Source of the DNA: Desulfobulbaceae bacterium
GTDB taxonomy: Bacteria; Desulfobacterota; Desulfobulbia; Desulfobulbales; VMSU01
Assembly (NCBI GenBank): GCA_015231515.1
Contig: JADGBM010000011.1
Coordinates: forward strand, 1-51,767
DNA: 51,767 bases
Direction: 5' to 3'
Position 1 is the first letter of the stretch. Each line of letters opens with the position of its first letter. Position numbers and translations under genes: made by a program. Positions 215 through 13,745 of the stretch are shown here, piece after piece. Under the pieces are notes generated by a model. The model ran no database searches, was not told the DNA's origin, and worked only from the letters and a program-made list of their open reading frames with translations.

Positions 215-1063
215 ATGACATTTTTTAAAAAGAGGGCGGTTTTGCTGGTTCCGGCATTGCTGGTGATTGCTTTGGCTTCCCCCTGTCAGGCTGCGGTGGA
301 AACTGAAACGGTTAGCACGTACAAGGGGAAAGGCGGGGCCTTAGACACAGCCGTGTCAGGTGATGGGAAGTTCTTTTATGTGTTGGCGCCAAACGGGACT
401 ATTGAAATTTTTCCGACAGACGGTGGCCCCAAGGAGGAAGTCAAATTTGACGGGAAAGCTGATAAAGTGGCGGTCTCTGAAAGTGGTGATATACTTTTTT
501 TGACTGATTCCGCCTCTGGAACTACCCGTTTGATGTCGGTAGAGTATGTTCAATCTTTTGATCTGGCAGGGGCACCATACAAGGGTCCTGAAAATGCCCC
601 GGTGTCTTTGGTGATCTTCAGTGATTTCCAATGACCGTACTGCGCAAAGGTTCTACCTTTACTTGAGCAGGTGCTCAAGCTTTACCCGAATGATGTGAAA
701 CTGGTCTTTAAAAATTTTCCACTGCGGAGTCATCAGTTTGCTGAAGCGGCTGGCCTAGCTGCATTAGCGGCTGGCAAGCAAGGGAAATTCTGGCAAATGC
801 ATGACGCGATTTTTGAAAATTATAACAAGCTGAATAATGAGAAGATTACTGAGCTTGCGCAGCAAATTGGTCTCGATATGGTAAAATTTGAAGCCGACAG
901 CAATGATACGCAGTTGAAAAAACAGGTTCAGCTTGACCTTCAGAGTGGTTATGCTGCTGGAGTAAGAGGAACCCCAACTCTTTTCGTGAACGGAAGAAGA
1001 GTTAAGCAACGAAGTGTGGAAGGTTTGAGGCAAATGGTCGATAAGGAGTTGGCTAATCGTTAA
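215..1063 (+). CDS. Secreted DsbA-like thioredoxin-fold selenoprotein (in-frame UGA = Sec at residue 140)
   Basis: The frame is interrupted only by TGA at 632-634 and continues in the same frame to TAA at 1061-1063, giving 282 residues if the TGA is read through. Residues 1-26 form a signal peptide ending SPCQA. Residues about 30-110 look like propeller blades (GDGKFFYVLAPNGTIEIF, SESGDILFLTD). Residues about 115-282 are a DsbA/BdbD-type thioredoxin fold: FSDFQ-UGA-PYC, then KNFPLRSHQFAEAA, a helical insert, and the cis-Pro loop RGTPTLFVNG. The UGA sits exactly at the first Cys of the expected CPYC motif, which is the classic position for selenocysteine. The protein should work as a periplasmic thiol/selenol oxidoreductase. 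Selenocysteine-containing DsbA-like proteins are known in sulfate-reducing relatives. An authentic nonsense mutation is the alternative, but downstream codons are fully conserved in character. Confidence 0.85.
632..670 (+). promoter_or_regulatory. UGA recoding site with putative bacterial SECIS hairpin
   Basis: TGA occupies 632-634. After an 11-base spacer, AAAGGT (646-651) pairs perfectly with ACCTTT (655-660) around the triloop TCT. A lower stem CTGC (640-643) / GCAG (667-670) can form beneath it. The 11-base distance to the upper stem equals that of E. coli fdhF (established knowledge). The strict triloop lacks a G; opening the top pairs gives a GGUUCU-type loop closer to the bacterial consensus. 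Folding was done by eye. Confidence 0.65.
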
Positions 1064-9599: not shown

Positions 9600-12278
9600 T
9601 CAGCTTTTGGCAAGGTTTTCACCCACACTCACATTGACCAGCAGGGGTACAGAGAGATCAAGCACGGATTCCATCACATTTTTTATAAGTGTAGCGGTTT
9701 TTTCAAGCTCATTGTCTGGCACTTCGAGAACGAGTTCGTCGTGGATTTGCAATAGGACATTTGCCTGGAGGTTGTGTTGTTTGAGCTGCTGGTCAACATT
9801 GATACTTGCCAGTTTAATGATATCTGCTGCCGTGCCCTGAATTGGGCTGTTTAGAGCAGTTCGTTCGGCAAATTCACGGCGAGTTTTGTTGGGTGAGTTA
9901 ATGTCCGGTAGGTTGCGCCTTCGGCCAAGCAAGGTTGTCACATAGCCGGTTTCTTTTGCCTGTTCGACGATGGAACTCATGAAGTTTTTGACACCCCGGT
10001 AGTGATCGAAATATCGATCAATAAAGGTTTTAGCGTCTTTTCGACTGATATTGAGTTGAGCCGATAAGCCAAAGGCACTCATGCCGTAAACAATGCCAAA
10101 ATTTATACTTTTTGCAACCCGGCGCATTTGATTTGTGACAAATTGCGGCATAATTTGAAATATTTCAGAAGCAGTTTGCTGATGAATGTCTTCACCAGTG
10201 CAAAAGGCCTTAATAAGGGCAGGATCCTGTGAGTAATGGGCCAGAACGCGTAAGTCGATTTGAGAGTAATCTGCAGCAATAAATTTGAAGCCGGCTGCGG
10301 GAATGAAGGCGGCTCTGATCTGTTGGCCCTCATTGCTGCGAATGGGGATATTCTGGAGATTGGGATTGCTGCTGCTAAGCCTGCCAGTTGCAGTTACTGC
10401 CTGGTTAAATGAGGTGTGCAGCCTGCCGGTTTTGGGGTGAACGAGAGCTGGGAGTTTGTCCACGTAGGTAGTTTTAAGCTTTGTAAGGGTGCGATGTTCG
10501 ATAAGCAGCCTTGGTAGTTCGTGCATTGAGGAAAGTTTCTCAAGGACGTTCATGTCAGTCGAATACCCTGTTTTTGTTTTGCGGCCATGAGGAAGTTTTA
10601 GCTTCTCAAATAAGATTTCAGCGAGTTGTTTTGGCGAGCTGATGTTGAACTCCATGCCGGCCAGAGAAAAGATTTTTTTATTAAGTACTTCAATCAGTTC
10701 ATGGAATTTATCGGAAAGGGTATTGAGCAGATCACAGTTCAGGCAGACCCCATGGAGTTCCATGTTAGCAAGCACCGGAATGAGTGGAGTTTCAACCTGG
10801 CTGAAGACTGGCCAGAGCCCAAGGGCGTCGAGCTCGGGTTCAAATTGTTCCCAAAGATGTTTTGTCGCATAAACATCCTCACAGGAGTAATTTGCGCCAT
10901 CTTCAAGTGAGACAAAGCGAAAGGCATCTGCATTTTTATTGGCTTTTGTGACCTCGGCAAATGAGGTTAGTTTTACGTCGAGAAGTTCAGCGCTTAGATC
11001 GTCAAGTTTGTATGATGTTCTGGATGGGTCGATGAGGTATGCGGCAAGCATTGTGTCCCAGAGAGGGCCCTGCATGGTAACCCCATTTTGTTTGAGGACG
11101 GCATAGTCATACTTTATATTGTGACCAAGTTTCGGGAGCCTGGGATTTGTGAAAAATTTTGAAAATAGTTTGTTGATAACCTCAAGAGAGAACTGGCCGG
11201 AGCATTGGTTGCCTTCGAGATCTTGATGGGAAAGAGGGATGTAGTAAAAATCGTCCTCCGGCCCGGCTATTGAGATACCCACCAGCTCTGCTGTCAAGGT
11301 GTCAAGGGAGGTTGTTTCGGTGTCGATCGTGAGGTACGGAATGCCCTTTAAACGCTCTGCCAGTTTTTCAAGATCTTCTGCACTTGTAATCAAATGAAAT
11401 GCGGCTGTATCAAGAGATTGGCACTGTTTAGTTTCTTTGAGCAGGCGGCTGAAGTCAAGGTACGTATATAGTTCAGTTAACTTTGCATTGTCAGGAATTT
11501 GTACTTTGTAATCAGCTAGTTGCTGAGGAACATCGACATCGGTTTTAAGTTCAATAAGGGCTTTGGATATAAAGGCATTCTCCCGGTTATTTTGAAGATT
11601 TTCCAGAAGTTTGAGGCGTTTTACTGAGTTCAGGTTATCATAAAGATTTTCTATCGTGCCAAATTGTTCGATAAGTTGCCCGGCAGTTTTAGGGCCGATA
11701 CCTGGAACTCCTGGAATATTGTCAGATTTGTCACCCATGAGGGCAAAAAGGTCTAACAGCTTGTCTGGGGCGACTGTATATTTTTTTTCAACGGCGGCTG
11801 GATCCATTACCCGATCAAGCATCGGCTCCCAAACGGTTATCTGTTTGGAAACAAGTTGTAATAAGTCTTTGTCGCCCGACACAATGATTACCTGGTGGCC
11901 CTGATTAGCAAAGGTCGTAGCGACAGATGCGAGGGTGTCGTCAGCCTCGACCCCTGGTTTTTCGAGGGTTAGGATGTTATGGGCTTTAACTAAATCTCTA
12001 ATGTAGGGCAGTTGCACGACCAGATCTTCCGGCATCGGGGGGCGATTCGCCTTGTATTCCGGGTATTGTTGATGTCGAAAGTTGGGTCCTTTGGCATCAA
12101 AGGCAATGGCAATATATTGGGGCTCTTTTTCTCGGATGACCCTCAGCAGGATATTGATAAAGCCATAAATGGCATTGGTCGGTAGACCTTCTTTATTGGA
12201 TAGAGGGGCAATGGCATGGAACGCTCTGTAGATATAGGCGTTTCCGTCAATTATGTAGATTGGCGAATTTGAAGTCAT
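9600..12278 (-). CDS. polA: DNA polymerase I with 5'-3' and proofreading exonucleases
   Basis: A full-length 892-residue Pol I. The 5'-3' exonuclease is at about 1-290 (IIDGNAYIYRAFHA, VEADDTLA, SGDKDLLQLV, GDKSDNIPGVPGIGPKTA). The 3'-5' proofreading domain is at about 300-490 with intact acidic residues D319/E321 (TIDTETTS), GHNIKYDYAVL and YSCED. The polymerase domain follows with motif A DYSQIDLRV, motif B RRVAKSINFGIVYG and motif C QIHDELVLEVP. It is used in Okazaki-fragment maturation and repair. Unlike Pol I of Thermus, all proofreading carboxylates appear present. Confidence 0.97.
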   Translation of the reverse strand: MTSNSPIYIIDGNAYIYRAFHAIAPLSNKEGLPTNAIYGFINILLRVIREKEPQYIAIAFDAKGPNFRHQQYPEYKANRPPMPEDLVVQLPYIRDLVKAHNILTLEKPGVEADDTLASVATTFANQGHQVIIVSGDKDLLQLVSKQITVWEPMLDRVMDPAAVEKKYTVAPDKLLDLFALMGDKSDNIPGVPGIGPKTAGQLIEQFGTIENLYDNLNSVKRLKLLENLQNNRENAFISKALIELKTDVDVPQQLADYKVQIPDNAKLTELYTYLDFSRLLKETKQCQSLDTAAFHLITSAEDLEKLAERLKGIPYLTIDTETTSLDTLTAELVGISIAGPEDDFYYIPLSHQDLEGNQCSGQFSLEVINKLFSKFFTNPRLPKLGHNIKYDYAVLKQNGVTMQGPLWDTMLAAYLIDPSRTSYKLDDLSAELLDVKLTSFAEVTKANKNADAFRFVSLEDGANYSCEDVYATKHLWEQFEPELDALGLWPVFSQVETPLIPVLANMELHGVCLNCDLLNTLSDKFHELIEVLNKKIFSLAGMEFNISSPKQLAEILFEKLKLPHGRKTKTGYSTDMNVLEKLSSMHELPRLLIEHRTLTKLKTTYVDKLPALVHPKTGRLHTSFNQAVTATGRLSSSNPNLQNIPIRSNEGQQIRAAFIPAAGFKFIAADYSQIDLRVLAHYSQDPALIKAFCTGEDIHQQTASEIFQIMPQFVTNQMRRVAKSINFGIVYGMSAFGLSAQLNISRKDAKTFIDRYFDHYRGVKNFMSSIVEQAKETGYVTTLLGRRRNLPDINSPNKTRREFAERTALNSPIQGTAADIIKLASINVDQQLKQHNLQANVLLQIHDELVLEVPDNELEKTATLIKNVMESVLDLSVPLLVNVSVGENLAKS

Positions 12279-12632
12279 AGAAGTTATCTGTAGGATGTTG
12301 CAATAGAGGTTATAGCCTGCTTGTGGGTTGGCGGATTTTGCTGTCTTTTGGCGTCAACCTGCTAAATTAGATTACCCTTTTTGGCACAGAACTCTCTGGA
12401 AGGCAACAGTTTTGTTCATTTGCGGATCAAGAGAAAATAAGGAATATCAGAAATGATGAAATTTGGTAAATGTTCGGCTTGAGCCTAGAAAATAACAAAA
12501 TACCCGAATGGTTCGAAATTTGTTTTAAGGTTTCACCTATTCTTCCGATTTAAAAGTATCGGAACTTTTATTCTGGTAGTTGTGGGCAGCCTGCTCCTTG
12601 AAATACCGGTCAGCAAAAAATATTTTTTTTGT

Positions 12633-12659
12633 TAAAGTTTGTTTTTTTTAAACCGATAT
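12633..12659 (+). promoter_or_regulatory. Sigma-28 (FliA) promoter of flgM
   Basis: TAAAGTTT (12633-12640), 11 bases, then ACCGATAT (12652-12659). The sigma-28 consensus is TAAAGTTT-N11-GCCGATAA, so the -35 is exact, the spacer is exact, and CCGATA is exact in the -10. Transcription would start near 12667, about 100 bases before flgM, with a small GGCTA/TAGCC hairpin in the leader (12703-12718). In the rest of the 488-base gap after polA I see only AT-rich sequence. Confidence 0.88.
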
Positions 12660-12766
12660 GATATTCAGAAGAAGTAGTACAGTTAGCATTAATGTGTTGT
12701 TGGGCTAGCGGAATAGCCATTATGGTTAGTTAACAAGGATTGTTAAAACACACTCAGGGGGCCGGT

Positions 12767-13072
12767 ATGAAGATAAGTAATCTTGTGCCGCAAATTAAAA
12801 CCGACAATAAGGTTCATAAGGCAAAAGCCAGTTCGACGGCGGAGCTGTCATCTACTCAGACTGCATCTACCGATCGAGTTCAGTTATCATCAAGTTCAGT
12901 TGATGTGCAAAAAATGAAAAGTATTATTCAGGAAACACCATCAGTCAGGATGGACAGGGTTCAGGCCCTCAAGGAACAGATTGAACGTGGTGAATACCAA
13001 GTCGATCCGTACCGGGTTGCTGATAAAATGCTTATGAATTTATTGTCTGAGAGTGGGCTAGCTGACGAGTAA
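12767..13072 (+). CDS. flgM: Anti-sigma-28 factor FlgM
   Basis: A 101-residue FlgM. The N-terminal half is low-complexity and disordered (STAELSSTQTASTDRVQLSSSS), and the C-terminal half has the family pattern RMDRVQALKEQIERGEYQVDPYRVADKMLMNLL, which binds FliA and is exported through the finished hook. The ATG at 12767 is preferred over an in-frame TTG at 12740; the Shine-Dalgarno (CAGGGGG) is modest. It is transcribed opposite to the main flagellar cluster from its own sigma-28 promoter, giving the usual negative feedback on late genes. Confidence 0.88.
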   Translation: MKISNLVPQIKTDNKVHKAKASSTAELSSTQTASTDRVQLSSSSVDVQKMKSIIQETPSVRMDRVQALKEQIERGEYQVDPYRVADKMLMNLLSESGLADE

Positions 13073-13204
13073 AGTTCCTGCGTGTGAAGTTGTTGTAGTC
13101 CGTTGCTCTTATTTTCTCCTGATCGCATTAAATCCTCAGATATACGTAACTCCCCTCTCCTTTTTTTTCCACCCCCCTATTTCTACTATGTCACATTTCG
13201 AATT

Positions 13205-13240
13205 TTCGTCATCCCGGCATGTCGTTAGCCGGGATCCAGT
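13205..13240. repeat. Short palindromic repeat of the GTCATCCCGGC...GCCGGGATCCAG type
   Basis: ATCCCGGC (13211-13218) and GCCGGGAT (13228-13235) form an 8-bp hairpin with a 9-base loop, flanked by CGTC and CCAG. This form is widespread as small dispersed intergenic elements (dRS3-like repeats in Neisseria and others). It sits between convergent flgM and fliW and might also act as a terminator. Only one copy is in the window. Confidence 0.55.
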
Positions 13241-13265
13241 TTCTTCTACAATGGTTGCGAGCGGC

Positions 13266-13745
13266 TTAATCGTTTTCTTGTAAGATCGGCCAACATGGCG
13301 AGTAAAGGGTGGGGTCAAGCAGGATCTGTTTGGCGAGGCATTTGGCAGCGTTTAAGGCAACCGGGCCTAACAGATTTGCGGTCATTTTTTGAGGGTTGCC
13401 CTGCGGAATTGTAATGATGAGTAAAAGTCCGATCTCAGCGGGGCTACTGGCTTGTAGTTCGACACACACAGAATGGGGAATGGGTGGATTGTACTGAGGG
13501 GTGATAATTGCCGGTTGCAGAACCACAAAGGCTAGATTCGGGTTGTCAACCGCCTGTAGCCACCAGAAGGCCGACTCATCGCTATGAGGTACCAGTACAA
13601 ATCGTTTTTCATTGGCGAAACCAAGAAAGGGGCTGGTGAGGGAGATAATTTTTTCGGTGTTGATTTCAATCTCCCCAAATCGGCTGGTGCGGATAAGCGA
13701 TTTCGGAGTTTGATCTGATTCTGTATTGGTTGGGATGCTTGTCAT
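13266..13745 (-). CDS. fliW: Flagellar assembly factor FliW
   Basis: A 159-residue FliW. After a short variable N-terminus (1-19) come RTSRFGEIEINTEKIISL, FLGFANEKRFVLVPH, FWWLQAVDNPNLAFVVLQP and the closing LLGPVALNAAKCLAKQILLD, all family signatures. FliW binds flagellin and antagonises CsrA, coupling filament export to translation. It lies 70 bases downstream of csrA, the conserved pairing. The start has only a weak ribosome site (CTGGA), so translation may depend on csrA. Confidence 0.9.
   Translation of the reverse strand: MTSIPTNTESDQTPKSLIRTSRFGEIEINTEKIISLTSPFLGFANEKRFVLVPHSDESAFWWLQAVDNPNLAFVVLQPAIITPQYNPPIPHSVCVELQASSPAEIGLLLIITIPQGNPQKMTANLLGPVALNAAKCLAKQILLDPTLYSPCWPILQEND

Follow-up and report, generated by a model that had tools for sequence, protein, structure and literature searches.

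The window analysed here, a stretch of 51,767 nucleotides from a Desulfobulbaceae bacterium, carries near its start a dsbA-like gene at positions 215-1063 of the forward (+) strand, on which the features of this gene given below are located. The gene ends in a TAA stop and comprises 282 codons when a single in-frame UGA is read through. A ribosome-binding-like AGGAG (204-208) precedes the ATG by 6 nt, and a terminator-like inverted repeat, AAAACAACAACACCCC...GGGGTGTTGTTGTTTT, follows at 1088-1136. This repeat was recognized by inspection, the scan listing its inner piece 1112-1126 alone, and it suggests the end of the transcript.

Readthrough translation gives a product of 282 residues whose sole internal stop is codon 140 (632-634), which falls into the motif FSDFQ-U-PYC as the first redox residue of UPYC and is best read as selenocysteine (Sec), U140. 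The sequence-only reading of this DNA had described one break in a 282-codon frame, a TGA in place of the first Cys of a CPYC motif, and two halves that share a frame and together complete a DsbA fold. Translation confirms the break and its coordinates, the alignment of relatives agrees with translation on the position of the TGA within the motif, and a Pfam domain runs across the UGA as far as the cis-Pro loop GTPT (residues 252-255) and beyond. The expectation that automatic annotation would split the gene also came true, the ORF caller having produced a 167-aa frame from 131 and a 130-aa frame from 671. In the relatives retrieved, the genes flanking the dsbA-like gene show no conserved order, and plasmid matches, all below 60% identity, were uninformative.

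The predicted protein begins with a probable Sec-type signal peptide, MTFFKKRAVLLVPALLVIALASPCQAA (215-295, by inspection), and this signal-like N-terminus points to export to the periplasm. Next comes a domain of two beta-propeller blades of the YVTN/WD40-like type (320-574), identified by PDB profile search (1l0q, E 1e-19; 2ymu, E 3e-27), AlphaFold2 (pLDDT 88) and Foldseek. Residues 36-120 match the designed two-blade protein Pizza2-SR (3wwb) over the full length of each, with a TM score of 0.68-0.71 both ways. The rest of the protein (578-1045) is a catalytic domain of DsbA fold, and the UGA lies inside it: PF13462 (Thioredoxin_4; E 3e-26, residues 122-277) and PF01323 (DSBA; E 7e-21) are both above cut-off. 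AlphaFold2 assigns a pLDDT of 90 to the whole protein and mostly 92-99 to the catalytic domain, which Foldseek matches to BdbD (3eu3) and 3gyk at E about 1e-11 and also to ScsC. The resolving Cys143 (641-643), T253 and the cis-Pro P254 (974-976), all encoded 3' of the UGA, do not vary among the 40 relatives aligned.

Because two blades alone cannot close a propeller, an oligomer is likely, and the modelled two-blade fragment suggests an oligomeric enzyme, perhaps held together by closed propeller assembly. Designed two-blade pieces such as Pizza2-SR assemble into complete propellers. Since DsbA-fold enzymes that are oligomeric tend to be isomerases, an isomerase or reductase role appears as likely as that of an oxidase. 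No DsbB/VKOR-type partner was found among the seven neighbouring genes examined.

Homologues were then compared at the UGA position, a check that the sequence-only reading had itself proposed. Relatives were taken from a genome scan and from the genomes of related bacteria, and 207 sequences could be aligned at codon 140. Sixty of them have TGA there and 147 have Cys (125 TGC, 22 TGT); among the 89 full-length members the numbers are 48 and 41. In a tree of these 89, built with the UGA and SECIS-coding columns left out, 16 changes between Sec and Cys are needed, at least seven of them forced by supported branches. Evidently, the position holds either Cys or TGA, and the switch has been made independently many times. 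TGA at this codon is spread over many genera, in genes whose second half is intact. The source genome itself contains four DsbA-like frames with TGA at this codon, three besides 215-1063, and a fifth with Cys.

Two hairpins stand in tandem downstream of the UGA, and selection acts on both of them in TGA genes. The second, CUUGAGC-AGGU-GCUCAAG (hairpin 2, 662-679), has a stem of 7 bp, an MFE of -10 kcal/mol and a loop located 34 nt after the UGA. Published limits for bacterial SECIS elements are G within the first two loop bases, a loop of 3-9 nt, a stem of 4-16 bp, a distance of 16-37 nt from the UGA and an MFE of -7.5 or lower (PMC13188914); hairpin 2 lies inside all of them. An Rfam search gave no match at this site. 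Of its seven base pairs, six form in 48 or 49 of the 49 TGA relatives, whose loops read AGGU or AGUU, with a single AGGC. When folding was expressed as a z value against synonymous recodings of unchanged protein sequence, the mean for hairpin 2 was -3.7 in 49 TGA genes, while the 41 Cys genes averaged +0.3 (p 9e-16).

The same distinction is visible in the sequence itself. The 12-base core GAGCAG[G/T][T/C]GCTC occurs in 45/48 Sec genes versus 2/41 Cys genes, and the peptide EQ[VLA]L encoded at hairpin 2 in 46/48 versus 2/41. The Glu codon is GAG in 46 of the 48 Sec genes and the Gln codon CAG in every one of them, whereas the Cys genes vary freely at these places. The hairpin sequence is so constrained that it dictates this peptide; RNA structure here prescribes protein sequence. 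Of the two Cys genes possessing the core, one (L027) groups as sister to the Sec gene L036, which is what a fresh switch from Sec to Cys would produce. The two genes (L027:1711 with TGC, L036:5193 with TGA) are very similar and both have the SECIS, so that, to judge by their sequences, such a switch has apparently been caught in the act. A paralogue within the source genome (L102, G000 contig C37:4118-4918) has the UGA and a weakened hairpin 2 that has lost two inner pairs; its decoding may be poor or may proceed by another fold.

The first hairpin, AAAGGU-UCU-ACCUUU (hairpin 1, 646-660), is the one which the sequence-only reading had taken for the SECIS. The 11-nt spacer (635-645) and the perfect 6-bp stem exist as it described, and a SECIS downstream of the UGA is indeed there; its core, however, is the overlooked hairpin 662-679. 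That 646-660 should be the core after all, with 662-679 merely incidental, is highly improbable, although its spacer equals the E. coli value of 11 nt (PMC8659212): it falls outside two of the published limits, with a loop, UCU, devoid of G and an MFE of -3.8, and it varies in sequence and register among relatives in which 662-679 is nearly invariant and its loop AGGU or AGUU.

Hairpin 1 recurs in TGA relatives with shifts of register. Its mean z against synonymous recodings is -2.6 in the 49 TGA genes versus -0.3 in the 41 Cys genes (p 6e-14). The stem mostly occupies three registers, its 3' end lying 25-26 bases past the UGA and abutting hairpin 2, and its sequence differs from gene to gene (AAAGGU/ACCUUU, GAGGC/GCCUC, GCGGC/GCCGC, GUGGC/GCCAC). 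A register-free count of the region found the hairpins clustered in Sec genes, while the best hairpins of Cys genes were shorter and scattered. Covariation analysis of hairpin 1 in fixed columns fails, the register shifting between subgroups. Corrected for kinship, the link between hairpin 1 and TGA stands at 4.0 versus 0.2 of 7 pairs with a median p of 0.125, which is suggestive of a weak tie. In one paralogue of the source genome (L101) hairpin 1 is weak in fold. A short class of TGA genes, to which the genome's own copy L103 belongs, is devoid of hairpin 1 and shows one hairpin only, whose GGUC loop lies about 18 nt past the UGA. A contig labelled Acidobacteria (L057:5001-5540) bears a TGA gene like that of the window, two-hairpin motif included, owing either to gene transfer or to mis-binning of the contig.

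A pseudogene or a sequencing error would make the TGA a mutated or misread TGC or TGT and the protein truncated or truly Cys-containing. TGA is one base away from both codons, and the assembly is a draft whose selB has a probable homopolymer error. A random stop or misread base is nevertheless rejected because of the 60 TGA sequences, the switches on the tree and the conserved downstream half. Moreover, the RNA signal goes with TGA and is lost with Cys, and four such genes reside in one genome. Recurrence of TGA at this codon (60/207), combined with folding better than that of synonymous recodings in TGA genes only, is far beyond chance, and it is extremely improbable that the TGA is an artefact or a lesion.

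The sequence-only reading had named selA, selB, selC and selD as genes to look for in the same genome. Three of them were found; selC, encoding tRNA-Sec, is absent from the assembly, and selB is frame-shifted as assembled. Against the refutation that this reading had set for itself, a genome devoid of Sec machinery, the case therefore holds up in part. The selD gene scores above cut-off and bears its own Sec-type UGA (CGUAAKIGP), followed by a stem-loop whose loop starts with GG. The selA gene, also above cut-off, is cut in two by a contig gap, one part lying at the end of C145 and the other at the end of C80. Likewise above cut-off, selB shifts its frame by one base within eight consecutive G (L001:1515-1525, G000 contig C22), while in matched relatives it is one open frame. 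This frame change is probably a sequencing or assembly error, although a slippery or phase-variable selB is possible.

Neither a covariance model nor DNA comparison found tRNA-Sec in the assembly, which consists of 225 contigs and is rated 95% complete. Of the 57 other genomes searched, 54 have it, among them 9/9 of the same family. Two relatives (G007 and G009) have selC beside polA; a search beside polA in the window (12278-13300) did not find it. In several relatives (L136, L142, L143 and L145) selC is paired with a small conserved gene (MEC..FKxLLKSWY...), at different chromosomal places and in some beside polA, and this small gene is likewise absent from the present assembly. Since relatives carry intact genes and the contigs are broken, the missing selC and the frame-shifted selB are likely to reflect assembly gaps or errors. 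The absence of selC is the weakest point of the selenoprotein case.

This absence also speaks for the possibility that UGA is decoded as Cys or Trp, whether through a suppressor tRNA or through an altered genetic code. Such a reading is hardly credible: UGA terminates 4 of the 35 long genes in the window, selA and selD are present, the latter with a Sec-type UGA of its own, a SECIS with a SelB-type loop follows the codon, and no suppressor tRNA was seen among the candidates examined, a subset of the tRNAs of the genome. Scarcely tenable, too, is the view that UGA is a plain stop, with the frames from 131 and 671 as separate proteins, or a site of regulated release; a mechanical ORF caller does make this split, and Sec decoding is in constant competition with termination (PMC4513850), but the split would sever the DsbA fold within the active site, the downstream frame begins past the resolving Cys, no ribosome-binding site is seen before 671, and the Cys relatives are one single protein.

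Judged from its sequence and that of its relatives, 215-1063 is thus very probably a real selenoprotein gene. The selenoprotein reading put forward earlier is strongly supported by the TGA/Cys switches, by a SECIS that accompanies TGA and not Cys, and by selA, selB and selD in the genome. Very probably, the gene would encode an exported DsbA-like thiol-disulfide oxidoreductase, with Sec inserted at UGA 632-634 through the SECIS at 662-679. On arrival of the ribosome at the UGA, SelB with its cargo of Sec-tRNA would be held by the AGGU-loop hairpin, and selenocysteine would enter as the first residue of UPYC. In the periplasm, the selenolate would exchange disulfides with substrates, Cys143 acting as the resolving residue.

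More speculatively, we propose that hairpin 1 brings the SelB-binding loop effectively nearer to the UGA: by removing about 15 nt of spacer, it could let the loop at 34 nt act like one at about 17-18 nt. The two-blade fragment, equally speculatively, might oligomerize the enzyme, an effect which ScsC, a DsbA-like trimer, achieves in a different way. Joined together, these ideas give a tandem-hairpin SECIS in which a hairpin 1 of free sequence folds the spacer away and places the AGGU loop as if at ~18 nt, hairpin 2 fixes EQVL in the first helix of the enzyme, and two-blade propeller pieces build oligomers of the selenoenzyme. This combined picture is tentative, and we would sooner doubt than accept it in full.

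Ordinary annotation would split such genes or call them broken, and one genome holds four of them. As a single codon has switched between Sec and Cys many times, the family represents a natural experiment in which the benefit of Sec to a periplasmic thiol enzyme can be compared. The additional selected hairpin bears on the question why distances between bacterial SECIS and UGA differ (16-37 nt).

Among known proteins, BdbD (3eu3), 3gyk and ScsC (4xvw, 5idr) share the fold of the catalytic domain; unlike these Cys enzymes, the present one would have Sec, and its N-terminal domain is made of beta-propeller blades. ScsC possesses an N-terminal oligomerization region. Pizza2-SR resembles residues 36-120 in size and fold but is a designed protein. 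The SECIS core is similar to that of E. coli fdhF, whose apical loop is AGGU as well, and like it lies in the coding frame shortly past the UGA. In the E. coli SECIS loop, G23 and U24 are the G and U needed by SelB (PMC8659212). The present element differs from the fdhF type in that its loop is 34 nt from the UGA instead of about 17, the spacer being filled by the extra hairpin. A literature search, weak as evidence owing to its partial journal coverage, gave no description of a two-hairpin bacterial SECIS.

The protein passes no NCBIfam model. The best match, NF041057 (Rcas_1661 family thioredoxin-like (seleno)lipoprotein), covers residues 111-264 with 89.4 bits against a cut-off of 190; the likeness to a thioredoxin-like (seleno)protein is there, but the score makes our protein a non-member, and no lipobox is seen in it. 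DsbA-like selenoproteins were already listed in 2006 (PMC1794560), later in PMC1914089 and, as UxxC, in PMC13188914. With form 1 of this DsbA-like protein (PF01323, UxxC; PMC1794560, PMC13188914, PMC1914089), our gene shares the DsbA domain, UGA at the first redox position, Cys homologues and deltaproteobacterial occurrence. Going by their descriptions, the published members are set apart from this subfamily, which has a two-blade propeller in front and a hairpin preceding the SECIS. The protein family itself is already known, and what marks this gene is the extra hairpin under selection in front of the usual SECIS hairpin; the gene is a member of the known DsbA-like UxxC selenoprotein family with an unusual SECIS layout.
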